NCBI GenBank assembly: GCA_002215645.1
Contig: NGFI01000014.1
Location: forward strand, 1 to 64,000
From: Gemmatimonadetes bacterium 2013_60CM_65_52
Lineage (GTDB): Bacteria > Gemmatimonadota > Gemmatimonadetes > Gemmatimonadales > Gemmatimonadaceae
DNA length: 64,000 bases
Direction of reading: 5' to 3'
Part shown: one piece after another, positions 18,188-41,846 of the stretch
Numbering within the stretch: the stretch's first letter is position 1
Layout of the letters: the number at the start of each line of letters is the position of its first letter
The notes under the pieces: model-generated
Told to the model about the DNA's origin: nothing
Seen by the model: only the letters and a program-made list of their open reading frames with translations
The model's database searches: none
Made by a program: the position numbers and the translations under genes

Positions 18188-18220
18188 CGCGCGAAATGTA
18201 TGAGCCGTGCACGCACTCGA

Positions 18221-19030
18221 TCAAAACAGCGACATCTGCTCGCCGAGGGATTCCGGATTCACAGGAGCCTGGCCGACCATGCGCTGGAGCTCTCGCGCGC
18301 TTTGCGGCGAGTGACCGGCAAAGAGGTTGTTCACGTAACCGTAGACCTTCACGTTCACCTTCGACAGCGTGGTCATCACGTCCGCCCACTCCTCCAGCTC
18401 GCGCGTGCGGTCGATCTGAATGCGCGAGTAATCCACGATGTCGCGGTTGGCGCCCATCCATCGGAGATACGCAAAGTTCGCCGTTGGCCGCGAGGCGAGC
18501 GCCAGCATCTGCTTGCGGGGAATCCAGCGAGCGTCGGTCACGGCGAGCGCCACGCCATGCTCTGCCAGCAGCGCAATCACGCCGTCGTTGATCCACCCGC
18601 GATGGCGGAACTCGATGGCAAATCGGATGTCGCGCGGCAACGCCGGAAGCAGGTTGGCGACGGCGGGCAGCTCGCTCGGGCCGAAATCGGGAGCAAGCTG
18701 GATGAGCACGGGTCCAAGCTTGTCATATAGCTCGCGTGCGCGCTCGAAGAATTCTTCCGCGAGATCGGCGGAGTCCCGCAGCCGCCGCTCGTGGGTGATT
18801 TCCTGGGGAAGCTTGAGCGCGAACGTGAATCCCGGCGGCGTCCGTTCATACCATCCGCGCACCGTCCTGACCGGCGGAACCGCGTAGAAGGTGGAGTCCA
18901 CCTCCACCGTGTCGAAAGCACGCGCATAGACCGTGAGGTAGTCCGCCGGCCGCGTGTCGCCCGGGTAGAACGGTCCCACCCACGCATCATAGTTCCAGCC
19001 CTGCGTACCAAGCCGAATCGGCGCGCTCAT
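18221..19030 (-). CDS. DUF72 family protein
   Basis: A 269-aa TIM-barrel-like protein. It has the DUF72 landmarks IRLGTQGWNYDAWVGPFYP at the N-terminus, TVEVDSTFYAVPP, FTFALKLPQEITHERRL, and VKVYGYVNNLFAGHSPQSAREL at the C-terminus. The biochemical role of the family is not established. Confidence 0.92.
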   Translation of the reverse strand: MSAPIRLGTQGWNYDAWVGPFYPGDTRPADYLTVYARAFDTVEVDSTFYAVPPVRTVRGWYERTPPGFTFALKLPQEITHERRLRDSADLAEEFFERARELYDKLGPVLIQLAPDFGPSELPAVANLLPALPRDIRFAIEFRHRGWINDGVIALLAEHGVALAVTDARWIPRKQMLALASRPTANFAYLRWMGANRDIVDYSRIQIDRTRELEEWADVMTTLSKVNVKVYGYVNNLFAGHSPQSARELQRMVGQAPVNPESLGEQMSLF

Positions 19031-26987: not shown

Positions 26988-29960
26988 GTGCAGACACTTC
27001 GCCGTGCCGCCGAGCTGCTTCACGCAGCCAATTCCCCCGACGGAAGGCTCGCCGTCGCGCGCGAGTTGGGATTTCGCGGCGAGGCGTTGACGCTCGATGC
27101 CGTCGCGCGGGAGCGATTGCGGCTTCCGATCACAGTACGTGCTGCCACGCTCGTGGCCGGTGTCGGTGCTTTGCGCGCGCTCTTGATCGATTCCACTGAG
27201 GTGGAGTCGCTACGCCAGCTCCTTACGTCGCTCGCGGCGCCACTGGGTTCGCGATCGGCGCACGTGCTGTGGACGGTCATCGCCTCGTCGGCGTCCGGAG
27301 ACGAAATCGGAATCGCGTGCTGGCAACCCGGAGCACGCGGCAGCCGCACTGTCGCGCTCGTCGCTCAGCGGGCGCGGATCGTCGCGAGCGACGCGGAATC
27401 ACTCTGCGCACTCGCTGCGGCAACCGACGTCGACGACCTCGCCGTCTACACGCGCTGGTGCGAGCTCCTCGGGTGCGGCGCGCTATCCCGCAAGTTCTAT
27501 CGCATTCTGGAATCGCGAGTGCGTACACTCGCCGAGTCGCTGACCGGTGTGCCTGCCTCGGAGCGCAGCGAGCTCGCGTTGTTATGCGTGTCGCGTCTGC
27601 TCTTCCTCTCGTTCCTCGAGGCGAAGGAATGGCTGAACGGAGACCGCGCTTTCCTTTCCGCGAGCTTCGATGGCTGCATGGCCGGTGGCGGACGATTCCA
27701 CCAACGGGTCCTGCTTCCACTCTTCTTCGGAACGCTCAACACGCGCATGTCTCGACGTGCGCCGGAGGCGAGGCGCCTCGGCGCCATCCCATTCCTGAAT
27801 GGCGGTCTGTTCTCGCGTGCGCCCATCGAACGCCGCAATGCGAGGGCGCGGTTCAGCGACGAAGCCATCGGGCAGGTATTCGGGGATCTGCTTGGAGCGT
27901 TTCGTTTCACGGCTCGGGAGAACCAGGAGCACTGGGGAGAGGCGTCGATCGATCCCGAAATGCTTGGACGTGCCTTCGAGTCGCTCATGGCGGCGCGCGA
28001 GCGGCGCACTAGTGGCGCCTTCTACACGCCGCAGGAGTTGGTGGCACGCGTCACACGTCGCGCGTTGGTCGTCGCACTCGGCGACGACACGCTCGCCGAG
28101 TCGAGCGTGGAGGCTGCGCTGGGCGGTGATGAGCTGTCGCCGAAGGATGCGGAGACGCTATGTGCGAGACTGAAGCACTTCGCGGTGCTCGATCCGGCGT
28201 GCGGCTCGGGTGCGTTCCTCGTCCACGTGCTCGAGCGCGTTGCCGATCTGCGCAAGGCAGCCGGCGATTCACGGAACATCTCGGCCATTCGGCGAGAGGT
28301 ACTCGCACGAACGATCTACGGAGTGGACGTGAATCCCACAGCGGTTTGGCTGTGCGAGCTTCGACTCTGGCTCTCCGTGGTCATCGAGAGCACGGAGGAG
28401 CGCATGTCCGCTGTCCCAGCCCTTCCGAATCTCGACGGCAATATTCGCGTCGGTGATGCGCTTTCTGGTGCGGCGTTCTTCGAGCCGCCGGCGTTGATGG
28501 GACCGAGTGCAACCCTCGTTCGACTGCATGAGCGGTATGTGCGGGCGACAGGTCCGCGCAAAGCTCCCCTCCGCCGCGCGCTGGCGCGGGAGGAACGTCG
28601 TCGCGCCGTAGCAACGATCGATCGCGAGCTCACCGCGATCTCCTCGGTGCGGCGTGAGCGCCTCGTCGTGCGACGGGCTGCGGACCTCTTCGGCGAGCGA
28701 GCAGTTCCAGGACGAGACGAACGTATGGAGATGCGGAGTCAGCGACTTCGCGCCGCCGCGCTGCGCCGCGAGCGACGTCGCCTCGCTGATGGAGGAGCGG
28801 TTCCGTTCTCGTTTCCAAGTCACTTCGGCGCGGCACATGCGCGCGGCGGCTTCGATCTCGTGATCGGCAATCCGCCGTGGGTTCGGCTGCACAACATCAC
28901 GCCGACCGCGCGCGCCGGTCTACGTGCCCGGTTCGTGACGTATCGCGAGGCTGGTTGGGAGCTCGGCTCACGCGCCGGCCATGCGGCGAGGGGCTTCTCA
29001 TCGCAGGTCGATCTCGCCGCGCTGTTCGTGGAACGAAGCACGCAGCTCGCGTCGACGCATGGGTGCATCGCGTTGCTCGTGCCGGCCAAGCTGTGGCGGT
29101 CGCTCGCCGGCGGCGGTGTGAGGCGGCTCGTGACACAGGATCTCACGCTCCGCACGCTCGAGGACTGGTCCGAGGCTCCGTCCACGTTCGACGCCGCGGT
29201 GTATCCGTCCGCGCTCGTCGCGTCGCGTAGCAGCGACCGTCGCGATGCGGTGATCGGTGTGCACCGTCGCACGATGGAGCTGCAATGGAGCGCGAGCGCG
29301 CGCGATCTCCGCTATCTGCGACATGACGCCGCGAGTCCATTGCTTTTGTTGCCGCCGGACGCGCGCCGCGTCTTCGACCGACTCGCCGGATGCGGTCCCG
29401 CGCTCGGCGACAGCAGGTTCAGGCGCGCGATCCTCGGCGTGAAGTGCGGATGCAACGATGCGTTCATCGTCGACGCTGTCGAGGTTCGGGGGGCGCTGGT
29501 CACGATAGAGCGAGAGGGGCGCCACGGTGACATCGAGCGCGAGCTGCTTCGTCCGCTCCTGCGCGGTGACCACGTCACGCCCTGGCAAATCCAGCGAGGG
29601 CGACACGCCATCATCTGGACACACGATGACTTCGACGAACCCCTGCGTGCTCTTCCACCCGGCGCCGCGCACTGGCTGGCGCCGTGGCGACGGCGGTTGC
29701 TCGATCGGACCGATCTTCGCGGCACTCGGGCATGGTGGGCTCTGTTTCGAACGGAGAGCGCCGATTCGTCGAAAACGCGCGTCGTCTGGAACGACTTCGG
29801 CCGCACGCCCAGAGCTGCGCTGCTGCCGAGGGGAGATCGGACGGTGCCGTTGAACAGCTGCTATGTCGTCCAGTGCGACGACGAAAGCGACGCGTTGGCG
29901 CTCACCGCGTTGCTGAACAGCGCCGTTGCCGCCGCATGGCTCAACGCCATCGCGGGTTAA
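26988..29960 (+). CDS. Eco57I-like DNA adenine methylase, truncated by the casposon
   Basis: A 990-codon frame from a GTG start. The N-terminal 330 residues are helical and unassigned. From about 330 it reads like Eco57I/type IIG-type methylases: DPEMLGRAFESLMAARERRTSGAFYTPQELV, the AdoMet-binding LDPACGSGAFLVHVLE near 402, the catalytic GNPPWVRL near 628, then a target-recognition-like C-terminal half. The frame is cut after LNAIA by the casposon left end, which adds Gly and a TAA. The native gene had 77 more codons, now at 41612-41846. No PD-(D/E)xK nuclease motif was recognised. Together with the helicase downstream it looks like a restriction or defence locus. Loss of the tail may or may not abolish activity. 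Confidence 0.88.
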   Translation: MQTLRRAAELLHAANSPDGRLAVARELGFRGEALTLDAVARERLRLPITVRAATLVAGVGALRALLIDSTEVESLRQLLTSLAAPLGSRSAHVLWTVIASSASGDEIGIACWQPGARGSRTVALVAQRARIVASDAESLCALAAATDVDDLAVYTRWCELLGCGALSRKFYRILESRVRTLAESLTGVPASERSELALLCVSRLLFLSFLEAKEWLNGDRAFLSASFDGCMAGGGRFHQRVLLPLFFGTLNTRMSRRAPEARRLGAIPFLNGGLFSRAPIERRNARARFSDEAIGQVFGDLLGAFRFTARENQEHWGEASIDPEMLGRAFESLMAARERRTSGAFYTPQELVARVTRRALVVALGDDTLAESSVEAALGGDELSPKDAETLCARLKHFAVLDPACGSGAFLVHVLERVADLRKAAGDSRNISAIRREVLARTIYGVDVNPTAVWLCELRLWLSVVIESTEERMSAVPALPNLDGNIRVGDALSGAAFFEPPALMGPSATLVRLHERYVRATGPRKAPLRRALAREERRRAVATIDRELTAISSVRRERLVVRRAADLFGERAVPGRDERMEMRSQRLRAAALRRERRRLADGGAVPFSFPSHFGAAHARGGFDLVIGNPPWVRLHNITPTARAGLRARFVTYREAGWELGSRAGHAARGFSSQVDLAALFVERSTQLASTHGCIALLVPAKLWRSLAGGGVRRLVTQDLTLRTLEDWSEAPSTFDAAVYPSALVASRSSDRRDAVIGVHRRTMELQWSASARDLRYLRHDAASPLLLLPPDARRVFDRLAGCGPALGDSRFRRAILGVKCGCNDAFIVDAVEVRGALVTIEREGRHGDIERELLRPLLRGDHVTPWQIQRGRHAIIWTHDDFDEPLRALPPGAAHWLAPWRRRLLDRTDLRGTRAWWALFRTESADSSKTRVVWNDFGRTPRAALLPRGDRTVPLNSCYVVQCDDESDALALTALLNSAVAAAWLNAIAG
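29940..29953 (+). repeat. Casposon target-site duplication, left copy
   Basis: CTCAACGCCATCGC, identical to 41598-41611. Fourteen bp is a typical target duplication length for casposases. Confidence 0.92.
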
Positions 29961-29990
29961 GAGAGAAGCTTCCCGGAACTTCACCCCCCC
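29954..29990 (+). repeat. Casposon left terminal inverted repeat
   Basis: Starts GGGTTAAGAGAGAAGC and ends ACTTCACCCCCCC. It matches the reverse complement of 41561-41597 at 31 of 37 positions; the mismatches are at 12, 17, 18 and 21-23. A C-tract continues to 29992, and a 7-bp hairpin (AAAGGCT/AGCCTTT, 29993-30021) follows. Confidence 0.92.
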
Positions 29991-30107
29991 CCAAAGGCTA
30001 GGCTCCGGGCGGAAAGCCTTTAGTTTCGACTGTGTGATCGGGGGGGCGATAACGAGCAACGCTCGCGACTTGCATATGTCAACGCGCTTCAGAGAGATGA
30101 TCTAGAC

Positions 30108-30893
30108 ATGCCAAACCGTCGTCCGACTCCCTCCGGTCTCGAAGTGAAGGTCTTCGCTACCGTCGAGGAGATCGAGCAAGCTGTCAGGAAATTGCAGCGA
30201 CGTATCGACGACGTGAACAGCTTCAATCCGATGGCGACCGCCATGTTTCGGACGGGAGCCGACGAGGTCTTGGCGAGCGACATTAGCAATTCAATTCGAG
30301 AAGTATTCGGTCCGAACTCCCCAGAATTCGACGAGCATCAGCACTTCAACCTTTGGGGTGGGAGTGGAGTCGGCACGCCGCGCGACAATGTTCTGGAACG
30401 CGGTCGTTCACAGGCGAGAACAATATTGCATGGTCTAGTCAAGCGTCTCCGTGAAAAAGGCGAGGACCTACTTCAGGACACGGGCAAATCGCCCGCTAGC
30501 TATTTCGAACGTCTGAATCTGCATCCCCGCATCGCTGACGTAGCAAGAGAACTTTTCCTCGACGGGTATCACTGGGAAGCAGTTTTTGCGGCCTCGAAGG
30601 CACTCATTAACTATGTCAAAGAACGGTCTGGCAAGCACGATCTAGACGGCGCGCCATTGATCCGCACGGTTTTCTCAAAGAACGCTCCGATATTGGCTTT
30701 CAATGACCAAAAAGATCAGGTGGACCAGGACGAACAGGAGGGCATGATGCATCTGTTTGAGGGCGCAGTAATGGCAATTCGGAATCCCGGCGGGCACTCA
30801 TTTCCGGAGGGACCGGAGCAAAGAGCGATAGAATACATCTCCATGCTAAGTCTCTTGGCATTTCGCACACAGGAAGCGAAGAGGCGCCCTTAA
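30108..30893 (+). CDS. Hypoth_Ymh/TIGR02391 family protein (casposon cargo)
   Basis: A 261-aa protein. The N-terminal 130 residues are helical and unassigned. The C-terminal half is the Hypoth_Ymh (TIGR02391) domain: LHPRIADVARELFLDGYHWEAVFAASKALI...KHDLDGAPLIRTVFS...EGMMHLFEGAVMAIRNPGGH. This family is common on mobile elements and in defence islands and may be HEPN-related, with the RNPGGH end as a possible RNase-type motif; no activity is established. It has markedly lower GC than the host genes, so it is probably acquired cargo. An AGAGA-type weak ribosome site precedes the ATG. Confidence 0.85.
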   Translation: MPNRRPTPSGLEVKVFATVEEIEQAVRKLQRRIDDVNSFNPMATAMFRTGADEVLASDISNSIREVFGPNSPEFDEHQHFNLWGGSGVGTPRDNVLERGRSQARTILHGLVKRLREKGEDLLQDTGKSPASYFERLNLHPRIADVARELFLDGYHWEAVFAASKALINYVKERSGKHDLDGAPLIRTVFSKNAPILAFNDQKDQVDQDEQEGMMHLFEGAVMAIRNPGGHSFPEGPEQRAIEYISMLSLLAFRTQEAKRRP

Positions 30894-30974
30894 TTACGAC
30901 ACTCCAGACGCGTTGAACAGGACGCGAACCCCACCGTCCGGCACGCGCTAGTCAGAGACGGCATCGCTCTCTAT

Positions 30975-31703
30975 CTACTTCTCGCTTGCCGCGATGTATC
31001 GAGACACGATGAACGCAATTGTTTGACTAGCCGTGTCGGCAAGTCGTCTAACTCTTCGACTGAACTGTTCTGTGCCTACGGATTCGCCTAACTCCTGTAG
31101 CAAAGCGCTATACGCGGCATCCGCAAAATAGAAACGCGTGCGCTCCATGTTTGTCCCCGTAGACGCGTAAGCGACTTCGTTGTGCGGACCTTTCGCGGTT
31201 TCATAGAAATGTCTGCGGAAACCTTTTACCAGAGCCTTGGGCTGGTAGTAGTGATAGGCAGCGGTATGGCGGATGCGCCGAAGCATGCTGGTGAGCGCCC
31301 TATCCCGACCACCGCCCTTGTCTGTCGCGACGTCTACCAACTCCCTCCACTCGCGTCGTGTCTGCGGCACTGCGTGACTCAGAATGGCTGTGATCTCCGC
31401 TCCGCGCGCCTCAGTCTCAAAGGTCGCAATCAGCACAAGTAGTTCATGGAGTTGGGCCAGCACCAGACGCGTGGTTTGAATCTCTAGTCCGGTATATTGC
31501 CCATTGTGGCCAGTGATTGCTGCGGCCTTGGGGCTCTTCCATTCATGGAGCATGCCTTGCCAGATAATCAGCCCCTTAAGGTCGTTGAACGCCGCCGCCA
31601 GGGCTAGAATGAATGCCTGAAGATCGTTGCGCTCGACATCGCCGACAATGCCGTTCGGGTCAAAGCGACGTAGTGGTGCTAAGGGGAAGGTATGATCGGT
31701 CAC
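30975..31703 (-). CDS. Unknown 242-aa protein (casposon cargo)
   Basis: Not recognised. It is a mainly helical soluble protein: DLQAFILALAAAFNDLKGLIIWQG near residue 30, LVLAQLHELLVLIATFETEARGAEI in the middle, and RRIRHTAAYHYYQPKALVKGFRRHF near 155 with a conspicuous Arg/His-rich helix. The helical bundle and Arg-His cluster resemble HEPN-type or abortive-infection proteins superficially, but I cannot assign it. It faces away from the core genes, has low GC, and sits in the left cargo arm. Confidence 0.65.
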   Translation of the reverse strand: MTDHTFPLAPLRRFDPNGIVGDVERNDLQAFILALAAAFNDLKGLIIWQGMLHEWKSPKAAAITGHNGQYTGLEIQTTRLVLAQLHELLVLIATFETEARGAEITAILSHAVPQTRREWRELVDVATDKGGGRDRALTSMLRRIRHTAAYHYYQPKALVKGFRRHFYETAKGPHNEVAYASTGTNMERTRFYFADAAYSALLQELGESVGTEQFSRRVRRLADTASQTIAFIVSRYIAASEK

Positions 31704-32035
31704 GACGGCCCTTGAGCATGAGGGGGTCTGATCATGATGTCAACTCGATTGCTTGCTCGTCCGCGACAGCTGGCCATGTTGGACTCTCCCGGGACTAGGA
31801 GCTATCACCTTCTTACACGAGGAACCGCAATGGCTTCATTCATGGATCGCGCGGGCCAAATCGGTCGCGGCGCTTGGCATGATGAGAGGGAGGCCCGTAA
31901 GAACTTGGACGAGTTTTCTGCTTCCGGCGCGCGACGTTCCTACTGCTCCTCGTTGCCGTTGTAGGTATAGTCGTTGAGATTGCCAAATAGGCACGTGCGA
32001 ATAGACCTCGATTCTCAACTTGTGCAGAGGGGCCA
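31704..32035. other. Casposon cargo spacer with possible decayed membrane ORF
   Basis: No secure gene. A frame at 31830-31964 starts well (GAGGA before an ATG; MASFMDRAGQIGRG) but ends in a poor sequence. A different frame from about 31903 to 31990 encodes a clean membrane helix (ATFLLLLVAVVGIVVEIAK). This may be a small membrane gene broken by a frameshift. Confidence 0.35.
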
Positions 32036-32218
32036 ATGCTTATCCTCTTGGGCGCCATTATCGTCATCGAACTCGCTATCATCATATCGAGACTGAACGC
32101 CATCGCCCGCAGCACCGAGCTGTTCAGGCGTCATTACCTCGACGTCCTCAACTTCAAAGGCATTTCAGTCTGGGCACCTGATGGCTACTATCCGCTTGAC
32201 AGCACGTCGGCGCCATAG
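32036..32218 (+). CDS. Small membrane protein, 60 aa (casposon cargo)
   Basis: GAGGGG lies about 5 bp before the ATG. Residues 2-17 form a strong hydrophobic helix (LILLGAIIVIELAIII), followed by a soluble tail RSTELFRRHYLDVLNFKG. It ends 80 bp before the cas1 3' end in convergent orientation. Function unknown; a toxin or membrane anchor are possible but unsupported. Confidence 0.5.
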   Translation: MLILLGAIIVIELAIIISRLNAIARSTELFRRHYLDVLNFKGISVWAPDGYYPLDSTSAP

Positions 32219-32297
32219 GCCCCCAAATGAAGGCGGCTTTTTTTGCTGCCAGATGAATACTCGGCCAAGCTAGGAAATGGGCCGGGCCGCACTGTCA

Positions 32298-33824
32298 TCA
32301 TTTCGCGGCGAGTCGTTTCAATGCGTCCCAGTGTCTCGGATGCGGGGTCATTCGGCCCGTGCGAATGTGCTTGCATGAGCTGAAAGAAAGCCCCGTTACC
32401 GCAACAAGAGCACGAGCGGGTAAGCCCCTTATGCACGGGAATATCTCGCGCTTGTAGAGTGTAGGACTCGGAATGCTTTTCTGATGCGCCTCCCAAGTCG
32501 AGTTGAGGACGTGCTGTCGCTTCGCATTCTGGCGGTGCGTTTCGCGCGTTTCAGGACTCATGCGGCGATCCTCGCCAATCGCCCGGAGTTGTCGCTGGAT
32601 TGCGACGCCCTTCTGTGCCGCTCGCTTTACGTGCGCAGGAAGGCATGCGTCGCAATATGTCCGCGTCGGCTTGTTCAACGTCTGGCCGCATTCCTTGCAA
32701 CGCGGCGCGAGCGTTACGGCCTTCGCGGTGTCTTCTGTCCGCATGCGATTGCGCTGTGTGAGCGGTGTCCGTAACCGTAGAGGCGTTGTCTCGGTCAGCG
32801 GCACGATTGGGCCGATTGGCAACCGAACATGTGCGAACGCCCACGCCGCGTCCTCCGCGACGGGAGCCAGCGCCTTGGCCCACTGCGGGGCAGTCTCAGC
32901 AAGCGCCGAGGTGAGCGGCGGAAGCAAGCGACAATTGCCGTCACGATTCTCGAAGAAGTCCGCCTTGAGGAATGTGCGCTCCTCAAGCATTCGGAGAACG
33001 AACGCGTCAACGTTCGGCCGGACTGGCTCCATGACATCCGTGGCGAAGCTCTCCCGATTCGGCCTATCCGCGTGAATTAGTCCCATCGCCGCGTCACATC
33101 CGACGCGCTGCAACGCGAGCCGCGACTCCGCCTCCAAAATGCCATACAGATAGTTGAGGAACGCGTTGATTGGCGTGCTTGCTTTGCGCGGCGACGACGA
33201 GAGCTGAGAACGCCGAGAGTCGAAGGCGAGCCAATGCGACGGGACGCGCGCCAAATCCCGCGAGCCGAAGCGCATCGGGATGCCGTTCCACGCGTCCCAA
33301 TATGCCGCCGCTGCTCGCGACTCGATGTAGCGCAGGTCCGCCATCGTGTTCGCGTCGGCCAGCGCTTCGCTCGCGCCCTGAAGCACACGCACAGCGTCGC
33401 GCTTTCCGCCCATATCGCGCAGCACCTCGCATTGACCGTTGACCTTGCCTAGCAGTAGCGAGCGCGCAATGTCAACGCCTTGCGGAAGCGCCGACGCAAG
33501 CGCCTGACCGCGCCGAACACGTACATCGTCGAGCGCGCGAGACACATTGGTCGCAATGAGGCGACCGTCGTTGTCGAGCTGTATGAAGGAAATGCCGGTA
33601 TCGGACATCCAGCGCAGCGCATCGAGTGAGACGGTGCCGGTATGACCATGCACCACGACGCGTTGCACATCGGGCGCGACGCGCGCGAAACGACGCATGC
33701 GCCGCGACCGCGCGAGACCGTCCTCGATGACGAGATGTCCGCGTTCGACCACGATGCGAACGCCATAACCGTCAACCGCGACCACACCGTGACCCGTGCG
33801 TGCCTTCAATGCTGTTGCTGTCAT
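32298..33824 (-). CDS. cas1: Casposase: solo Cas1 with C-terminal zinc ribbon and HTH
   Basis: A 508-aa integrase. The N-terminal beta domain covers residues 10-95. The catalytic alpha domain has the Cas1 metal ligands Glu168 (YIESRAAAAYW), His251 (GLIHADRPNR) and Glu266 (ATDVMEPVRP); the 15-residue His-Glu spacing and LNYLYGILEAESRLAL are typical. Residues 376-394 form a CxxC-x11-CxxC zinc ribbon, and 458-508 a basic helix-turn-helix-like tail (TGLSFSSCKHIRTGRMTPHPRHW). At 508 aa it is well above the 300-340 aa of CRISPR Cas1, as expected for casposases, which need added DNA-binding domains to hold the TIRs. No cas2 or array adjoins it. The start is the ATG overlapping the HTH stop (ATGA), so the two are translated together. 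Confidence 0.95.
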   Translation of the reverse strand: MTATALKARTGHGVVAVDGYGVRIVVERGHLVIEDGLARSRRMRRFARVAPDVQRVVVHGHTGTVSLDALRWMSDTGISFIQLDNDGRLIATNVSRALDDVRVRRGQALASALPQGVDIARSLLLGKVNGQCEVLRDMGGKRDAVRVLQGASEALADANTMADLRYIESRAAAAYWDAWNGIPMRFGSRDLARVPSHWLAFDSRRSQLSSSPRKASTPINAFLNYLYGILEAESRLALQRVGCDAAMGLIHADRPNRESFATDVMEPVRPNVDAFVLRMLEERTFLKADFFENRDGNCRLLPPLTSALAETAPQWAKALAPVAEDAAWAFAHVRLPIGPIVPLTETTPLRLRTPLTQRNRMRTEDTAKAVTLAPRCKECGQTLNKPTRTYCDACLPAHVKRAAQKGVAIQRQLRAIGEDRRMSPETRETHRQNAKRQHVLNSTWEAHQKSIPSPTLYKREIFPCIRGLPARALVAVTGLSFSSCKHIRTGRMTPHPRHWDALKRLAAK

Positions 33825-34765
33825 GCGGATGCGATCAAGGTAGAAAGATCGTCGTCCGGCCACTCGGCAACCGGACGTTGGAGTAAGCCAGAGAAGGCAC
33901 GAAAGAGCGTCGGGAAGAGCGCGTGCGACCGAACCGGGAGCCAGAGGAGCACCATAGTCGGTTGCAAGTCGTCGAGCCCCTCCGCGAGCACGTGGGCGAA
34001 GCCCTTGTCCATCTCGGCATTGAAAAACTCTTCCGGTTGTTGGAGCACGAGGGGCAATGCGCGTTCGAGCAAGACGCGCAACTCGTCTCGCGCGCTGGAC
34101 AGGTCGGCCGACTGCGCGCCGTCGAACGCTGTCCGCAGTCGATCTGGCTGAACAGCACGACTCATCGCGTGTGCTGCCTGCGGCGTGAACCACGTCGCGC
34201 GCTCAACGCCAAGGCCCTTCGCCAGGAGTGCCGCGTCTGCTCGGTCGTGGCTGGTGTACGCGCCCGACGCGATTTCAAAGAGCAACGCGTGAAACGTGGC
34301 ATAGCGCGCCTTCCCTAACCGGCGACGCAGGCGTCCGAGGTCGCGATCTGTCACACGAGACAGTGCGCGGGCCTCAAACGCGGCCGCGAAGTCGTCGCTG
34401 TCCTCCGCGTACAAACGTTCCGCGACGTGACTGCGCTCCTCAATGTCAGCGAGTGCCGTTTCGAGAATGGCGCGAATGCGGGTTGCCTCAATCGGGAACC
34501 CGTTCCACCAGAGACGCCAGAGCGCAGCCTCGACGCTGCGATTCGCTGCGAGTTGTTCGGCAACGGCGACGAGCTGAGGCCCGGCTGATTCCGGATAGCT
34601 CGCGAGCATGCCGGACCCGCGACCACGGCCGCGCAGCACGGGCGACGGAAGCAAGCCGCGTTTTCGCCAACGGTCGAATTGCGAGAGTGTGACCGCGTGC
34701 CCCCGCTCCGCCGCATACGCGAGGACGTCCTCTTTCGACCAATTGACGGCTGAGGCATCGGGCAT
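33821..34765 (-). CDS. HTH protein coupled to cas1, 314 aa
   Basis: The N-terminus (SKEDVLAYAAERGHAVTLSQFDRWRKRGLLPSPV) is a MerR-like winged helix. It is followed by a Gly/Arg linker and a helical body (residues 55-314) with VAEQLAANRSVEAALWRLWWNGFPIEA and no enzymatic motif. Its stop overlaps the cas1 start by 4 bp, so it is made together with the casposase. It may regulate the divergent promoter region or serve as a DNA-binding partner in transposition; both are inference. Confidence 0.75.
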   Translation of the reverse strand: MPDASAVNWSKEDVLAYAAERGHAVTLSQFDRWRKRGLLPSPVLRGRGRGSGMLASYPESAGPQLVAVAEQLAANRSVEAALWRLWWNGFPIEATRIRAILETALADIEERSHVAERLYAEDSDDFAAAFEARALSRVTDRDLGRLRRRLGKARYATFHALLFEIASGAYTSHDRADAALLAKGLGVERATWFTPQAAHAMSRAVQPDRLRTAFDGAQSADLSSARDELRVLLERALPLVLQQPEEFFNAEMDKGFAHVLAEGLDDLQPTMVLLWLPVRSHALFPTLFRAFSGLLQRPVAEWPDDDLSTLIASA

Positions 34766-34911
34766 ACCTCAACTTACATCGGTACGCGTCGGCCTGCTAG
34801 AAGGCTGGCGCAGTCATGTGATTTTAGGAGAGCGCAGTAACGGAATTGCCGTTACATCGGTGCGCGAAACATGGCACGAAGCTGCTTGCGGCTCGATTCC
34901 GGAGATAGGCA
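34766..34911. promoter_or_regulatory. Divergent control region of the casposon core operons
   Basis: 146 bp between two divergently transcribed HTH genes. A 15-bp direct repeat TTACATCGGT(A/G)CGCG occurs at 34774-34788 and 34852-34866, one copy near each gene. A 19-bp palindrome GTAACGGAATTGCCGTTAC lies at 34837-34855, overlapping the second repeat by 4 bp. These look like operators that one of the HTH proteins could use to set casposase and polymerase levels. Confidence 0.65.
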
Positions 34912-35139
34912 ATGGATCGGCACGACCCCCTCCTCAGTAGCGCCGATGCGGCGCGCATTCTCGATGTGACGCCCGCGTCCGTGCGCAACATGCAGAAACG
35001 CGGCGAGCTGGCCGTGGCGGAAATCACGGTGGGCGGAATTCACCTCTATCGCGGCAGCGAAGTCCGACGCCTCGCGACAATGCGCGACACGGCGAAGCGC
35101 GCGGCACGCGCACCAAACCGCGACGGCGGTCGGCGGTAG
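34912..35139 (+). CDS. Small HTH/excisionase-like protein, 75 aa
   Basis: MDRHDPLLSSADAARILDVTPASVRNMQKRGELAVAEITVGGIHLYRGSEVRRLA is a MerR/Xis-type winged-helix DNA-binding domain; the last 15 residues are basic. The position as first gene of the rightward operon next to operator-like repeats suggests a regulator or a recombination directionality factor. The next gene starts 3 bp after its stop. Confidence 0.75.
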   Translation: MDRHDPLLSSADAARILDVTPASVRNMQKRGELAVAEITVGGIHLYRGSEVRRLATMRDTAKRAARAPNRDGGRR

Positions 35140-35142
35140 TGC

Positions 35143-35685
35143 ATGCCCGCCAAGCGCACGACATCGGGCGGGAAGGCACCGCCAGCGCGAACGGACGCGC
35201 GCAGGAAGGCACGGACGGACCTGCGCGCGCAGCTCGCGCAGCAACGCAGCCTAGACGGGTTGCAGCGCATGCGCGCGCGTGGCCTCTCGCTCACCCAAGC
35301 GGCCGCGCAGGCGGGCACCACGCCACGCACGATGCAGCGCCATGTCGGCCGCGCACTCAAGAAGCGCGACGACGGCCGGTTTGCCCCGACCACATGGGAC
35401 CGCATTCCACGCACGATGCGATTCCTCACGGAGAACGGTGTGATCGACCTGATTCTTCGCGATTCGCGCGCGGCTAGTGACCTCGCGCGGTATATGGGCG
35501 CGGTCGATCAGTTCTTGAAAACGGGGGATCAGGGGCCGCTCGCGGCGTTTCGCGGCAAGTCCGTGAAGTCCGGCAAAACCGCGCACGCCTACGTCACGAA
35601 TCCGAGCACGCTGGAACGCCTCGCCTATGCAGGCGAAGTGGCTTTTGAAGACCTCTACGCGCTCACGACTGGGGAAACGAAATGA
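35143..35685 (+). CDS. HTH protein, 180 aa
   Basis: A basic N-terminal 45 residues precede a helix-turn-helix (MRARGLSLTQAAAQAGTTPRTMQRHVGRAL, about 50-80). The C-terminal half (VIDLILRDSRAASDLARYMGAVDQFLKTGDQGPLAAFRGKSVK) is of unknown type. It lies between the Xis-like and HNH genes, with 3-bp and 4-bp junctions to them. Its location suggests a role in end recognition, replication or regulation of the element. Confidence 0.65.
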   Translation: MPAKRTTSGGKAPPARTDARRKARTDLRAQLAQQRSLDGLQRMRARGLSLTQAAAQAGTTPRTMQRHVGRALKKRDDGRFAPTTWDRIPRTMRFLTENGVIDLILRDSRAASDLARYMGAVDQFLKTGDQGPLAAFRGKSVKSGKTAHAYVTNPSTLERLAYAGEVAFEDLYALTTGETK

Positions 35686-36119
35686 CCGCGCCGGCACGCG
35701 ACCCGATTGCGAGCGAAGCACGCCGCGCGAAACGCGAGCGCCTACTCGGAGACAGTCCCGCGTGCGTGCGATGTGGGCTGGCAGAGATTGACAGCCTCAT
35801 CGCGGTCAAGCGCGGGGTGCTCGAAGCGCATCACGTGGTCGGCCGCGCCAATGATGAAGACTTGACGGTCGCTCTGTGCCGGAACTGTCATGCGGTCGTA
35901 ACCGAGCGCTATCGGGACGCGGGCGTGTCGCTCAACCGTCCGCCGACCGTACTCCATCAGCTCGCGGCGATCCTGCGCGCGCAAAGCGCGCTCCTCATCG
36001 ACCTTGGCCACCGCGGCGTACTCCTAGCTGATGCGCTGTGTCAGCTCATTGCGCTGCTCGATCGCGAATTTCCGAGCTGGCGCGCCATCGCGCGCGTGGT
36101 CACATGGCGCGCGCGCTGA
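35682..36119 (+). CDS. HNH endonuclease
   Basis: A 145-aa protein whose residues 28-70 form an HNH module with zinc Cys pairs: CVRC at 28-31, then LEAHHVVGRAND (catalytic His50/51), then CRNCH at 66-70. HNH nucleases accompany cas1 and polB in most casposons, although their job (donor nicking, target choice or competition) is not settled. It overlaps the HTH gene by 4 bp and the polB start by 16 bp. Confidence 0.9.
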   Translation: MTAPARDPIASEARRAKRERLLGDSPACVRCGLAEIDSLIAVKRGVLEAHHVVGRANDEDLTVALCRNCHAVVTERYRDAGVSLNRPPTVLHQLAAILRAQSALLIDLGHRGVLLADALCQLIALLDREFPSWRAIARVVTWRAR

Positions 36120-39115
36120 TTCCAGACGCGGCATCGACCGCGCCGACGCTCATTCCGGTCGCCCTGCGCGCGCACACGGTGCGCGGCACAGACACGGGAC
36201 CGGACGCGCCGTCGAGCGCGCGCGCTGAGGCTGCACTCGACGTCCCAAAGCGTGCACGCACGGGGCGCGCGGAACCGCGCTGGCCGCGTCACGTGCTCGT
36301 GTTCGATACCGAAACCACGACGGACGCGCGCCAGTCGCTCACGTTCGGCAGTTACCGGGTCTCGCGCTGGCAATCGGGGGGCTCGCTCGTGCTCATTGAG
36401 GAGGGACTCTTTCACGCGGACGACCTCGCGACCGCGCAGCCGGACGCACTGCGTGAACTGGACGCGTACGCGACAGCGCGCGGCGTGACGTTGCTGACGC
36501 GCCGTCAATTTATGACGCGCGTGTTCAAGCCAGTCGCCATTGACCTGCGCGGGATGGTCGTCGCGTTCAACCTCCCATTTGACCTGTCCCGAATTGCAAT
36601 TGAATCGGGCGACGCGCGCAACAAGTTTCGGGGCGGGTTTTCGTTCACGCTGTGGGATTATCAGGACGCAGCCACGGGCGAATGGCGCGAGCATCCCTAT
36701 CGGCCGCGCATCTGCGTGAAAAGCCTCGACAGCAAGCGCGCCTTTATTGGCTTTTCACGACCAATGACCACGGGCGAACCCAACGCGCGCGCCTTTCGCG
36801 GGCATTTTCTGGACGCGCGCACGCTCGCGTTCGCGCTCAGTGCGAAAAGCCATAGCCTCGCGTCCGCGTGCGCGACGTTCGGCGTGGCGCACGGCAAGTT
36901 GACCGTTGAGGAGCACGGGCGCGTCACGGCCGACTACATCGACTATAATCGGCGCGATGTGCTGGCCACGGAAGAACTACTGGTGACACTGCGCGTCGAA
37001 TTTGACCAGCTCGGCCTCTCCCTCGCCCCAATGCGCGCGTATTCGCCCGCGTCCATTGCCAAGGCGAATTTGCGCGCGTTCGGGATTCGACCGCTTCGGA
37101 CCAAAGCGCCCGGCATTTCGGACGCGGAATTCGGCCGGTGCATGACCGCGTTTTATGGCGGGCGCGCGGAATGCCGGATTCGGCGCGTCCCGGTGCCGGT
37201 CGTGACGGTCGATTTCCGGTCCATGTACCCGACCGTGAATTGTCTGCTCGATTTGTGGCGCGTAGTGACGGCTGCCCGCATCACGTTTCGTGACTGCACC
37301 GACGAGTTTCGCGCGCTGGTCGCGGCCGCGTCATTGGACGCGGCGTTTGATCCGGCAACCTGGCCGCGTTTGTGTTGCTTTGCGGAGATCGAACCGGACG
37401 ATGATATCCTGCCCGTGCGTGGGAAATACGCACAGACGCGCGAGGGGCTGAATATTGGCGTCAATCGCCTCACGTCGCCCGTCCCGATGACCTATGCCGG
37501 GCCGGACGTGTACGCGTCCGCCCTATTGACCGGCAAAGCGCCGCGCATTCGGCACGCGTGGCAATTGTGCGGCGAGGGCACGCAGGACGATTTACGCCCG
37601 GTCGCGCTTGCGGGCAGAATTCCGGTGAATCCGCGCGAAATGGATTTCTTTCGCACGGTCATTGAGGAACGCGTACGCGTGAAATCATCGGCCGACTATC
37701 CGCCCGCCGAGCGCGACCGCATTGCGCAGCTCCTCAAGATTGTCGCGAATAGCGGGAGTTACGGCATTTTCGCCGAAATGAACCGCGACGAATTAGCGTG
37801 CGACGACACGGAAACGGTCACGGTATTCGGCCATACCGCGCCATTTGCGCAGCAAACGACCGCGCCAGAGAACAGCGGCGAATTCTGCTTCCCGCCCGTG
37901 GCCGCGCTCATTGTGGCCGCTGCGCGGCTCATGCTCGCGCTCTTGGAACGGTGCGTCACCGACCGCGGCGGAACGTACGCGTTCTGTGACACCGATTCGA
38001 TGGCCATTGTTGCGACCGAACGCGGTGAATTGATCGAATGCGAGGGCGGAATGGCCGACGTGACTGACCGCATGGAAGCGGTGCGCGCGCTGTCGTGGTC
38101 GGACGTGCACGCCATTCAAGCACAATTTGACGCGCTCAATCCGTACGACCCGCGCGTCATTCCGACCATTTTGAATATTGAGGACCTGAATTATTCCAGC
38201 CGGGGACAGCGCGCGATATACGCGTATGTCGTGTCTGCGAAACGCTATGCGCTCTATTCACGGACCGACACGGGCGAAATTCAGCTCGAAAAATGCTCGG
38301 AGCACGGCCTTGGGCACCTATTGAGCCCATTACCGAAGGGAAGCGCTGAGAAATGGCCGGATATGCTCTGGAACATCATCTTCCACCGGGAATTCGGGCT
38401 GCCGTGCGAAAGCCCGCAATTCCTCAATTATCCGGCCATTTCGCGCATTTCGGTCAGCACGCCGCGCTATTTTCGCGGGTTTCTGCGCAATTGGGCGGAA
38501 TTGGAATATTCGGCGCGTATTAAGCCGTTCGGCTTCTTGGTGAGCGCGCACGTGGCGCGCTTCGGACATCCGGCGGGCGTAAATGCGCGCGCGTTTCATT
38601 TGGTCGCGCCATTTACGGCCAATCCGAAAGAATGGGCGCGCCAGTTGTGGACGGACACGTATTCCGGGGCGGAATACGCCATTTCGACCAGCCTGACCGT
38701 TCGACCGGGTGTGGTGCGCGTCCGGTCATTCGCGGACGTCCTGGCGGAATTCCTCGCCCACGGCGAAGTCAAGAGCGCGACCGCGAGGGGCGAACCTGCG
38801 GGCGCGAGTGCGCGCGGGCTGCTATTCCGACGTCACATCATGCCAAGCGAGCTGCGACTCATTGGCAAGGAATCGAACGCCCTTGAGGCAGCGGGAGCGG
38901 GACTCATTGGCGATTGGGACCGCATTCTGAGCACGTACGGCGACCGAACGACCACCAACGCACCGCCGATAGAACTACTTACTGCGGCGTCTGCGGCGAC
39001 ACTCGCGAAGGCATGGAATGTGAGCGTCCGAACGGTGCGAGAGTGGCGCAGAAATCGCCGCGAAACAACCTCTCCGGTAGCGACAGCTAGCGTCCTTGAG
39101 CTTCAGAGCAGATGA
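36104..39115 (+). CDS. Family B DNA polymerase of the casposon
   Basis: A 1003-aa replicative polymerase. Proofreading motifs: Exo I FDTETT (Asp68/Glu70), Exo II NLPFD (Asn156/Asp160), Exo III YNRRD (Tyr281/Asp285). Polymerase motifs: A DFRSMYP (Asp370), B KIVANSGSYG (Lys545, Tyr553), C YAFCDTDS (Asp629/Asp631). All catalytic residues are present. A C-terminal HTH-like tail (TLAKAWNVSVRTVREWRRNRR) follows. About 165 residues between motifs A and B leave room for a TPR-type insertion, but protein priming cannot be settled by eye. The ATG at 36104 keeps the HNH overlap at 16 bp; an earlier in-frame ATG at 36038 would overlap by 82 bp. Ile is often ATT here, unlike the ATC-rich host genes. Confidence 0.92.
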   Translation: MARALIPDAASTAPTLIPVALRAHTVRGTDTGPDAPSSARAEAALDVPKRARTGRAEPRWPRHVLVFDTETTTDARQSLTFGSYRVSRWQSGGSLVLIEEGLFHADDLATAQPDALRELDAYATARGVTLLTRRQFMTRVFKPVAIDLRGMVVAFNLPFDLSRIAIESGDARNKFRGGFSFTLWDYQDAATGEWREHPYRPRICVKSLDSKRAFIGFSRPMTTGEPNARAFRGHFLDARTLAFALSAKSHSLASACATFGVAHGKLTVEEHGRVTADYIDYNRRDVLATEELLVTLRVEFDQLGLSLAPMRAYSPASIAKANLRAFGIRPLRTKAPGISDAEFGRCMTAFYGGRAECRIRRVPVPVVTVDFRSMYPTVNCLLDLWRVVTAARITFRDCTDEFRALVAAASLDAAFDPATWPRLCCFAEIEPDDDILPVRGKYAQTREGLNIGVNRLTSPVPMTYAGPDVYASALLTGKAPRIRHAWQLCGEGTQDDLRPVALAGRIPVNPREMDFFRTVIEERVRVKSSADYPPAERDRIAQLLKIVANSGSYGIFAEMNRDELACDDTETVTVFGHTAPFAQQTTAPENSGEFCFPPVAALIVAAARLMLALLERCVTDRGGTYAFCDTDSMAIVATERGELIECEGGMADVTDRMEAVRALSWSDVHAIQAQFDALNPYDPRVIPTILNIEDLNYSSRGQRAIYAYVVSAKRYALYSRTDTGEIQLEKCSEHGLGHLLSPLPKGSAEKWPDMLWNIIFHREFGLPCESPQFLNYPAISRISVSTPRYFRGFLRNWAELEYSARIKPFGFLVSAHVARFGHPAGVNARAFHLVAPFTANPKEWARQLWTDTYSGAEYAISTSLTVRPGVVRVRSFADVLAEFLAHGEVKSATARGEPAGASARGLLFRRHIMPSELRLIGKESNALEAAGAGLIGDWDRILSTYGDRTTTNAPPIELLTAASAATLAKAWNVSVRTVREWRRNRRETTSPVATASVLELQSR

Positions 39116-39981
39116 ACTCCGTAAATACTCGCATTGCCAAGGACCTCTGGGACTCAATTGCGTCCCACTTCCAGTTCAAGGAGCCGGCCCGCTATCTGGC
39201 TCACTACACGACCGCCACTGCCGCCACGCAGATTCTTCAGACCGGCCAGCTGTGGGCCACCGATACAGCCACGTTTGATCCCCGCCATGTTGAAGGACAT
39301 CGGCAGTTATTCGCCGCCGAAGCCGTGCGTTTGTATCGAAAAACGGGACCGGAGCCGAACGCTCCGTTTCGCAAGGCGCTGTCCGACCAGTTCTCAGATC
39401 CCGTCTTGGCCCCAAGATTCTTTGCCGCCTGCCTAAGCGTGGATACCGATTCTCCGCACATGTGGCGGACGTACGGGGACGACGGCAACGGCGTAGCACT
39501 CATTATTGACTCGCAACTGGTCAACCGCGACCTCAAAGTCATTGCTGCCCCGTGTATCTACGCGCCCTCCGCGCAGCTGGACCTGTTCGCAAACCTAATG
39601 GAACGGTGTGATGCTCTCTCGGTCAGCCTCCCCGCCGAGGAAAGGGCCGAGCTCCTTCCCCACGCCACGGCACTCGCCAACATGCTTCTTCAGGCCTATA
39701 AGCACCTGTACTTGAGTCCCGAACGTGAATGTCGGTATGTGTACATGGAACACGATGGGCAGTCGTATCCACGTCTAGACGCTCCGCATCCTGAGCGTAG
39801 AGCCTTGCCGCTGGTAGGGGCCGGAACGACTAGTCCCTTCGTCTGTGCGGTTTCAGGCCCGCGTCGCACCGACGAAATCGATGCCGACTTTCGAGAGCGG
39901 CTTTGTTCAGCTGGCTATTCAAACATGCCCGTAACAAGTTCGACCGTTGACATGGCCAGCCTCACCGCAAGCGAGGACTAA
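39112..39981 (+). CDS. DUF2971-like protein (casposon)
   Basis: A 289-aa protein with the DUF2971 pattern: RYLAHYTTATAATQILQTGQLWATDTATFDPRHVEG near residue 27, then FFAACLSVDTDSPHMWRTYGDDGNGVALII near 103, and YLSPERECRYVYM later. The family is of unknown activity and is frequent in mobile and defence-related loci. The ATG overlaps the polB stop (ATGA), so it is produced with the polymerase and is not loosely attached cargo. Confidence 0.75.
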   Translation: MNSVNTRIAKDLWDSIASHFQFKEPARYLAHYTTATAATQILQTGQLWATDTATFDPRHVEGHRQLFAAEAVRLYRKTGPEPNAPFRKALSDQFSDPVLAPRFFAACLSVDTDSPHMWRTYGDDGNGVALIIDSQLVNRDLKVIAAPCIYAPSAQLDLFANLMERCDALSVSLPAEERAELLPHATALANMLLQAYKHLYLSPERECRYVYMEHDGQSYPRLDAPHPERRALPLVGAGTTSPFVCAVSGPRRTDEIDADFRERLCSAGYSNMPVTSSTVDMASLTASED

Positions 39982-40553
39982 CCAGATGATCTCGTTGATT
40001 TGAATACGAGTCGCACAGAGGTAACACCCTTGAGGCAGCCATTCGGCGCGCTCGGCGAATCCCGCTCAGAAGTGTCAGCGCCGGCCGCTCGAAAGGGGCG
40101 AGGGCGTCGGGGGGGCAATCACCACCAGCCGACCGCGGGCCAGAGCACGCGGACGTGTCGCGAGGGGTAGCCCTTCGCAGACCGAGAGAATCGCGTCTTT
40201 CCAATCGCCTGTGCGACGACGGTCGAGACGCCTGCCACAGCACGAGCAAAATAGAAATATTCCGCCTTTACCCTCCCCCTGCTCCCACGCGTGATGTTTG
40301 CGTCTCACGAGTCGCCTCCGGGTCATGCAACCGAGAATGCGAGCGCGGAGCGCACGGGGCTACAGCGTATACATAGCACCGTCAGCCTTACCCTCCGCGT
40401 GGCCGGGGGGGGGGGGGTGCTGGGGTGAAGCCGTCAGGGGTTGTGTGTTTTTCTGGGTCTTGTTGCCTAGCGGTCTGTCCGCGACCTCCGTCTATTCCCA
40501 AGCGACAGCAGCAGCACAGCTCCATTCCAAGGTGTTTTTCTCGGGAGGGTACG
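39982..40553. other. Casposon spacer with poly-G tract and TIR-like motif
   Basis: 572 bp without a secure gene. A minus-strand frame at 40075-40326 has a Cys cluster (FLFCSCCGRRLD) but no clear ribosome site. At 40405-40417 there are 13 consecutive G residues, followed by TGCTGGGGTGAAG at 40418-40430. The G-run and GGGGTGAAG echo the inner part of the right terminal repeat (GGGGGGGTGAAG, 41561-41572), suggesting a former or duplicated element end. Confidence 0.5.
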
Positions 40554-41492
40554 GTGTCTCGGTCCCGCGCGGTCCTCGCGCTCGCAACGTCCGTGGCGCT
40601 GGTTGCCGCGGCCTGCACAAAGGCCTCCCCGGACGCTGGCGCGGTCAGCGAAGGCCCGCACATCTCGCTCGATACCGCTAAAGTCCGGGAGCTTCGAGCG
40701 GAACGGAAGATGACGGATTCGGCGTTGAGCCTTCCCGATACCGCGAAGGGCGAGCATGCTGCGCGTGAGTTCGTCGCTCTGCTTAAGCCACTGCGACTCA
40801 TCGAGGCACAGGAGACGCTCGGGCGGCTCGGCTACGGGATCGCGATTTCCGGTGAGCTCGACGCACCAACTCGGCGCGCGTTCAGGGAGTTCGCCCGGCG
40901 CCATGGCGTGCCACTGACAGATTCGCTCTCCGCTGAGATGGAACTCGCACTTAAGTACTCCTCAGATCGTTCGTTCGTGCCATTTGCGCTCCACGATCTA
41001 ACAGTCTGGACAAGCAACTGGACGGCGCCTAGCTACGGAAGCGTTCATGCGCAGGGCACTTGGTCGCCAGCCGATCCCCCGCGGCAAACCTCAAGCATCT
41101 GGTGCTACCACGATCTTCGCGTGTGCCGCGAAACGGTCGCCTACGTCCTCATGGGAAACTTGTACACCGATGAGATTGAGTACACCGTGGAGTTGTGGGA
41201 CAACGAAGAATTGACGGCACGCAGCAACAGCACGTGCATGAGCGACAAGCTGACCATCAACCGATCTCAGGAGTCGTTGGTCCTCGTGCGCAGCGCCCGT
41301 GGTGCCGATCTCGAGTTCTGTGTCCGCACCCGATCCGCCAACCGGGAGTCCGTCTCGCGACTAGTCGATGGCCGGACGGTTACGGACTCACTGAACTACG
41401 AGGGGATGAAGTTCATTCGCCTTGGGCCGAAGGCGGCAACGCTGCTGCGCAAGGTTCAGCAAATGAGCAAGGCGACAGACGGGAAGAGGTGA
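40554..41492 (+). CDS. Lipoprotein with peptidoglycan-binding-like domain (casposon cargo)
   Basis: A 312-aa protein. The GTG at 40554 follows GGGAGG by 5 bp and opens a lipoprotein signal (VLALATSVALVAAAC, Cys near residue 20). Residues 75-120 (LIEAQETLGRLGYGIAISGELDAPTRRAFREFARRHGVPLT) form a PG_binding_1-like helical unit; the C-terminal part is beta-rich with two Cys pairs. It resembles chromosomal secreted genes of this organism more than transposon genes, and is the last gene before the right end. A role in element biology is not evident. Confidence 0.75.
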   Translation: MSRSRAVLALATSVALVAAACTKASPDAGAVSEGPHISLDTAKVRELRAERKMTDSALSLPDTAKGEHAAREFVALLKPLRLIEAQETLGRLGYGIAISGELDAPTRRAFREFARRHGVPLTDSLSAEMELALKYSSDRSFVPFALHDLTVWTSNWTAPSYGSVHAQGTWSPADPPRQTSSIWCYHDLRVCRETVAYVLMGNLYTDEIEYTVELWDNEELTARSNSTCMSDKLTINRSQESLVLVRSARGADLEFCVRTRSANRESVSRLVDGRTVTDSLNYEGMKFIRLGPKAATLLRKVQQMSKATDGKR

Positions 41493-41560
41493 TGAACGGG
41501 TGCCAATCGAGCGACGGTCCGCTGCCGACCGAGCGGCGGCAAAAGAGCAGATTTGTGTGA

Positions 41561-41597
41561 GGGGGGGTGAAGTTGGCGGGGGCTTATCTCTTAACCC
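41561..41597 (-). repeat. Casposon right terminal inverted repeat
   Basis: Its reverse complement starts GGGTTAAGAGATAAGC and ends ACTTCACCCCCCC, matching 29954-29990 at 31 of 37 positions. Confidence 0.92.
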
Positions 41598-41611
41598 CTC
41601 AACGCCATCGC
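41598..41611 (+). repeat. Casposon target-site duplication, right copy
   Basis: CTCAACGCCATCGC, identical to 29940-29953. It lies in the same reading frame of the methylase as the left copy (Leu-Asn-Ala-Ile-Ala). Confidence 0.92.
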
Positions 41612-41846
41612 GGAGCCGGCGCGCGGTGGCTGGCATCGCTACCTCGCGTGGACGATGTCACTTCTTCCCCTTCCCGCGGACTGGGACCGGGCCCGCGAGC
41701 TGTTGGCGCCTCTCGCGGAACGCGCCATCGGTGGAGCACCGCCCACGGACGCCGAACTGCTGAGCGCCACATGCCGCGCGTATCGGCTGCATTCAGCTCA
41801 TGTGGCGCCCCTTCTCGCGTGGTGCCATCACCCGCCGATCGGCTGA
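41612..41846 (+). pseudogene. Severed C-terminal tail of the methylase
   Basis: From the end of the right target copy the methylase frame continues for 77 codons to a TGA at 41844: EPARGGWHRYLAWTMSLLPLP, then a helical tail ending CHHPPIG. The EPARGGxxRYLxWTxxLLPxP block is a usual end-region of these methylases, which confirms the reconstruction. Without the 5' part it has no start with a ribosome site; an internal ATG at 41655 exists but its translation is doubtful. Confidence 0.88.

Follow-up and report, generated by a model that had tools for sequence, protein, structure and literature searches.

Gene content and boundaries of the element

The window, that is, the whole stretch of 64,000 nucleotides analysed here, comes from a soil bacterium of the Gemmatimonadaceae and carries on its reverse strand a gene (32298..33824) whose 508-aa product was identified as a casposase, a Cas1 protein with a C-terminal tail, from its translation, Pfam, alignment and structural models. 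The ORF starts at an ATG at position 33824 and overlaps the upstream gene by 4 nt (ATGA). Residues 17-301 match the Pfam family Cas_Cas1 (E=1.8e-42), and the NCBIfam Cas1 profile also matches strongly. The Cas1 domain, delimited at residues 12-335 (32820..33791, reverse strand) by VIA-align comparison with the casposase of Methanosarcina mazei (6OPM), contains E168, H251 and E266, which align with the E, H and E of that enzyme and, together with D263, are invariant across an alignment of seven casposases. The intact E168/H251/E266 site that the original prediction had read in this 508-aa protein is, thus, found alike in the translation, the Pfam match and both alignments. The top structural match of the core was 6OPM (Z 27.8, 3.4 Å over 301 residues, VIA-align), tied with the Archaeoglobus fulgidus Cas1 (4N06, Z 27.0), and solved-structure matches to the core mostly stop at residue 335-336.

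The casposase gene lies within an element of 11,644 bp (29954-41597) bounded by 37-nt terminal inverted repeats (TIRs) and a perfect 14-bp target site duplication (TSD). The left TIR, GGGTTAAGAGAGAAG...AACTTCACCCCCC (29954..29990, forward strand), and the right TIR (41561..41597, reverse strand) belong to an inverted repeat with 40-nt arms that are 83% complementary and occur just twice in the 4.2-Mb genome, which confirms as real the 37-bp TIR assumed beforehand. The left TSD copy, CTCAACGCCATCGC (29940..29953), adjoins the TIR and matches the right copy (41598..41611) at 14/14 positions. The original prediction named neither this TSD nor the gene into which the casposon is inserted.

Next to the casposase gene lies a reverse-strand gene (33821..34765) for a 314-aa protein with an N-terminus that looks MerR-like by eye; it matches no Pfam family and is also found beside cas1 in L042, L043 and L051, contigs carrying related elements. 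Four forward-strand genes follow. They encode a small HTH_17/MerR-like protein conserved in relatives (34912..35139; Pfam HTH_17, E=1.1e-6), a 180-aa HTH protein with homologues in L042, L043, L049, L050, L051 and L053 (35143..35685), an HNH-type endonuclease (35682..36119; weak Pfam HNH match, DUF7097 over the cut-off) and a family B DNA polymerase, PolB (36104..39115; weak DNA_pol_B_2 match), whose translation reads CDTDS at motif C and ends in an HTH-like segment. The HNH protein shares 55-59% identity, and PolB 59-64% identity, with their counterparts in the casposons of genomes G032 and G107, and the casposon gene set of the window element is common to its relatives. The casposase identity proposed from the sequence is, therefore, borne out by a complete bacterial casposon around the gene, with TIRs, a perfect 14-bp TSD, PolB, HNH and small HTH genes.

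The remaining genes are cargo. A gene of the Hypoth_ymh/TIGR02391 family (30108..30893, forward strand; Pfam PF09509, E=1.4e-29) matches the PADLOC profile Aga_HEPN (E=2.3e-17) and also resembles PD-Lambda-3_B, and may be a defence gene. It is followed by a reverse-strand ORF of 242 aa without a family match above the cut-off (30975..31703). Beyond polB lie, on the forward strand, a DUF2971-like gene (39112..39981; Pfam E=0.001) and an ORF of 355 aa with a peptidoglycan-binding match below the cut-off (40425..41492). A homologue of the DUF2971-like gene is located near one end of a distantly related casposon (L050:14817-15821; BLASTP E=6e-8).

Distribution and phylogeny of related casposases

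Casposons are rare in the Gemmatimonadaceae, being present in 4 out of 179 genomes. An alignment-based scan of genome contigs retrieved six close relatives of the window casposase and a single-sequence scan none; no close relatives were found in viral contigs by the single-sequence or later scans. Among the matches listed, those in plasmids were to CRISPR-type Cas1 proteins and the two in phages were partial, and neither were retained as casposase relatives. Further Gemmatimonadaceae casposases come from G032, G107 and G711 (tail only), and others from G040 (a second Gemmatimonadota family), two Acidobacteriota and one Chloroflexi contig. The phylum to which the L050 acidobacterium belongs yielded eight further genomes with casposases. 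Perfect 14-bp TSDs also flank the elements of G032, G107, G711, L050, L103, L104, L106, L107 and L108; TIRs were not found for L101 and L102.

The TIRs of the G032 casposon are very long, at about 270 nt with 83% identity (L075:115-382 and L042:3200-3466). A 60-nt inverted repeat in L042 was considered as its TIR and rejected as internal, the true ends being at L042:3200 and L075:382. Inverted copies of a gene of about 190 aa (L042:4114-4670 and 18060-18616; DNA 81% identical) lie near both ends of this casposon.

The strong Pfam and NCBIfam Cas1 matches would equally suit an ordinary CRISPR adaptation Cas1 that by chance lies inside a mobile island. We consider this extremely improbable, since the protein is the sole Cas1 of its genome (a whole-genome search found no second one) and its context is one of TIRs, TSD, PolB and HNH. 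Among the casposon genes compared with Pfam, no other cas gene was identified that would associate the protein with a CRISPR-Cas adaptation module. A maximum-likelihood tree of Cas1 domains points the same way: twelve bacterial casposases formed a group with support (96/87), separate from CRISPR Cas1 proteins of the same phylum, with the caveat that the M. mazei casposase, a family 2 enzyme and the only reference casposase in the tree, has a long branch and cannot be firmly assigned to this group. The window casposase and those of G032 and G107 grouped together (97/95).

Broken relatives also exist: the G107 casposase is spread over two contigs, and G141 and G012 hold remnants. The window element could, likewise, be a decayed relic with an inactive casposase, which is unlikely given that all its core genes are open, its catalytic residues are intact and its TSD copies match at 14/14 positions. 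The TSDs and the patchy distribution of the casposons are indirect signs of mobility.

Architecture of the C-terminal tail

A full-length AlphaFold2 model built from seven sequences (pLDDT 80) shows a confidently modelled Cas1 core, followed by a linker that is disordered (residues 336-371) and a tail that is ordered. In a tail-only model from 14 sequences (pLDDT 85), the zinc ribbon reached about 90 and the last 55 residues about 95. The tail consists of a predicted zinc ribbon (residues 376-394; 32643..32699, reverse strand) with cysteines 376/379 and 391/394 (CKEC-x11-CDAC), two long helices present in both models (residues 397-446; 32487..32636, reverse strand) and a C-terminal Xre/Cro-type HTH (residues 454-507; 32304..32465, reverse strand). 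The CxxC-x11-CxxC motif and HTH-like end noticed in the original prediction correspond to these cysteines and to a predicted four-helix HTH that contains TGLSFSSCKHIRTG at the C-terminus of the protein. The tail is folded in the models, being neither disordered nor covered by any CRISPR Cas1 match found, and CRISPR Cas1 structures align only with residues 11-335 or so, in line with the earlier statement that CRISPR Cas1 lacks such domains.

Solved structures matching the last ~58 residues were mostly Xre/Cro-type HTH proteins (C.EcoT38IS, Aca10, Aca1 and ClgR), with Z scores of 4-6 (up to 5.7) at about 3 Å, each match being weak and all concordant in kind. No Foldseek hit of the tail fell below E=0.001, and the HTH was, therefore, classed from numerous Xre matches that are weak but concordant. 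For the subtype of zinc ribbon, ribosomal L40e and other ribbons matched only at E 0.025 or worse. The tails of relatives showed weak Pfam matches to HTH_3/HTH_31 and to zinc ribbons.

A search for Cas1 proteins with the same tail recovered it in casposons of Gemmatimonadota and Acidobacteriota. A CxxC-x9..11-CxxC motif is present in 13 of the 15 casposases compared, and every one of the 14 with an intact C-terminus has an HTH bearing a PH.RHW-like motif, a recurrence that makes chance an inadequate explanation for either. The zinc motif is absent from the G040 and Chloroflexi proteins, which belong to the same clade; the suggestion that this composition marks a distinct lineage was, therefore, too strong. 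No sequence similarity was detected between the tail and that of the M. mazei casposase.

Repeated insertion into a methyltransferase gene

The window casposon interrupts an Eco57I-like DNA methyltransferase gene, whose 5' part (26988..29953, forward strand) comprises codons 1-989 and whose 3' remainder (41612..41846, forward strand) is in frame after removal of one TSD copy. With the element and one of the TSD copies taken out, the empty site is a single ORF of 1066 aa, which the casposon splits at codon 989. Homologues were found in 53 of the 59 Gemmatimonadaceae genomes sampled, mostly as one intact copy of about 1050-1100 codons. In PADLOC, the methyltransferase matched best, and in each case partially, to type IIG enzymes and to methylases of DISARM/BREX, and a helicase gene follows it in the window.

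The G032 casposon is inserted into this gene too, near codon 337; its TSD copies match at 14/14 positions over two contigs, and the joined ORF has 1082 aa. G711 carries two casposons in tandem (L120:1010-7160), with a TSD between them, at the same methyltransferase codons as in G032 (L-M-A-S-R), and its bin holds an intact second copy of the gene on another contig. The first of the tandem casposons carries an N4/N6 DNA methylase (PF01555), and the second is apparently truncated along with host-gene codons 338-730. The G107 casposon is inserted into another ORF. In G070, G195 and G299, the methyltransferase gene is split at the ends of contigs, and these cases were not counted as insertions. 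The G195 gene is broken between the ends of L078 and L079, which have 15 bp in common, CGACGCCGAGGAGAC, a TSD-sized overlap; this could reflect an unassembled insertion or an assembly effect.

The TSDs of all four Gemmatimonadaceae sites have C at position 1 and GCCAT at positions 7-11 (C-N5-GCCAT). A run of five identical columns, as in the first three sites found, occurred in 6.5e-5 of random triples. The expected number of C-N5-GCCAT sites is about 3,700 per genome and one 3.2-kb gene represents 0.08% of the genome, so hits in a single gene in three of the four genomes are not expected by chance, by an estimate that is post hoc and based on few elements. The reuse of the methyltransferase gene implies either that a longer sequence is read or that insertions in a dispensable gene survive best. 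The flanks of the Gemmatimonadaceae sites have nothing obvious in common beyond the TSD motif. Element orientation is the same at 4/4 Gemmatimonadaceae sites; it was discarded as evidence since both orientations occur at acidobacterial sites.

Acidobacterial target sites

Six acidobacterial elements have perfect 14-bp TSDs, each with TTGAC at one edge. Three of them (L103:4192-14052, L107:6915-15641 and L108:6899-15706) precede a tRNA-Gln gene by about 85-100 bp. There, the TTGAC upstream of the gene is followed 17 bp further by TACACT (TTGACC-N17-TACACT), a -35/-10 promoter-like arrangement, and the duplicated TTGAC looks like the -35 box of a putative tRNA-Gln promoter. Candidates for a -10 box are fair in L104 and L106 and poor in L050. 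The L103 and L107 TIRs differ, so the tRNA-Gln site has probably been used on more than one occasion; the L107 and L108 elements appear to represent one insertion, present in two genomes.

We tentatively suggest, as one possibility among several, that these bacterial casposons are site-specific for coding or promoter DNA, with the target set by sub-lineage: the conserved methyltransferase gene, which is inactivated, in Gemmatimonadaceae and -35-like TTGAC sites, for instance at the tRNA-Gln promoter, in Acidobacteriota. If so, disabling a host gene resembling those of restriction-modification systems may favour the survival of the incoming casposon.

Proposed role of the tail

Across relatives, the TIR is bipartite: GGG forms its terminal block, and an AA[C/G]T..CCCC-like inner box is located about 20 nt inwards. 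The terminal and inner blocks read GGGTTAAGAGA...AACTTCACCCCCCC in the window and G107, GGGTTATATGATAT...AACTTCACCCCCCC in G032, GGGATAGGGGATAG...GAAACTGCCCT in L050 and GGGTATATGTACAG...AAAAGTGACCCC in L104. Judged from these sequences, the arrangement would be consistent with one block serving catalysis and the other the DNA-binding tail.

By the mechanism that we favour, the Cas1 domain would join the casposon 3' ends to a 14-bp staggered target, as do the casposases of Aciduliprofundum boonei and M. mazei. The Cas1 core would read that target, C-N5-GCCAT in Gemmatimonadaceae casposons, and the zinc ribbon and Xre-type HTH would act as DNA-binding modules on a flexible linker. The tail would most likely dock the casposase on the casposon ends, probably at the AACTTCACCCC sequence that forms the inner box of the TIR. 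TIR recognition by the tail, as originally predicted, is plausible. The C-terminus of the acidobacterial casposon PolB is homologous to the casposase-tail HTH (hhalign probability 94%, E=1.1e-7), which favours binding to the TIR, since a polymerase would use element ends and has no evident use for a target. In the M. mazei casposase, integration was lost on deletion of the HTH (PMC6977970), which also speaks for this reading. Against it, the PolB tail of the Gemmatimonadaceae group that includes the window showed no detectable relation to the casposase tail, the latter has no sequence similarity to the M. mazei tail that could be found, and a family 1 casposase functions without an HTH (PMC6614799). 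Similar HTH domains on Cas1 and PolB were noted in family 2 casposons by Krupovic et al. 2014 (PMC4046053).

Alternatively, the tail could read the chromosomal target rather than the TIR, binding beside the 14-bp site and setting the choice of target, whether the Gemmatimonadaceae methyltransferase gene or the -35-like sites of Acidobacteriota. Target motifs differ between sub-lineages and the tails diverge too, and the reuse of one exact codon across two genera would call for more information than is contained in a 6-base motif with its ~3,700 expected sites per genome. For the M. mazei HTH, for which DNA binding in isolation was not demonstrated, the authors of that work lean to a role in target recognition (Hickman 2020, PMC6977970). 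However, the Gemmatimonadaceae flanks lack an obvious common sequence outside the TSD motif, a related HTH is also found on the acidobacterial PolB, and a family 1 casposase is target-specific without an HTH (PMC6614799). Target reading by the tail is, thus, a somewhat unlikely alternative to docking on the casposon ends. Overall, we regard it as probable that the product of 32298-33824 is the integrase (casposase) of a complete 11,644-bp bacterial casposon, with its tail most likely docking on the casposon ends.

CRISPR adaptation probably descends from casposons. The casposases studied at the bench are archaeal only (A. boonei, M. mazei and N. koreensis; PMC9939771). The bacterial set described here, in which elements are intact, their ends are mapped and the target sites number about nine, makes the role of the tail and changes in target choice testable. 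The repeated insertion of casposons, in tandem, at a single codon of a single gene also offers a natural parallel, outside tRNA genes, to the repeat-by-repeat growth of CRISPR arrays.

Comparison with known systems

CRISPR Cas1 proteins (A. fulgidus 4N06, type I-C and others) have a similar catalytic core but no such tail, and work with Cas2 on spacers. The element combines the features of the casposon superfamily, namely a stand-alone intact cas1, TIRs, a TSD and a PolB gene, and its TSD of 14 bp compares with a median of 15 nt among casposons (Krupovic 2014, PMC4046053). The A. boonei casposon resembles it in a PolB with CDTDS at motif C (PMC7544198), a casposase with a C-terminal HTH and a TSD of 14-15 bp; it differs in being archaeal and in targeting the 3' end of a tRNA-Pro gene, with a leader motif 8 bp upstream. 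The M. mazei family 2 casposase (6OPM; PMC6977970) shares the Cas1 core, a C-terminal HTH, a 14-bp TSD and site-specific and tandem insertion, whereas it has 406 aa, no reported zinc ribbon and a tail that is not detectably similar, and targets a tRNA-Leu gene with the motif CGCA at the TSD edge.

The closest architecture described is that of AceAut-C1, a bacterial family 3 casposon with zinc-binding and HTH domains fused to the Cas1 C-terminus (Krupovic 2014, PMC4046053) and a PolB gene. It comes from another phylum, and the likeness is drawn from the published description. The zinc ribbon and HTH tail read in the original prediction has, thus, been known as an architecture since 2014. Family 3 features found in the window element are a bacterial host, an HNH endonuclease and conserved HTH genes. 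Family 3 casposons insert into intergenic DNA (PMC6614799), which describes the known members rather than defining the family; the window casposon lies inside a methyltransferase ORF and was, therefore, not filed under family 3.

In the open literature searched, no paper paired casposons with Gemmatimonadota and one did so with Acidobacteria, through a reference only. Published casposons target intergenic DNA or the 3' ends of genes for tRNAs and aEF-2, and leave genes intact, so that, within this literature, the disruptive and repeated insertion into a methyltransferase gene is new.
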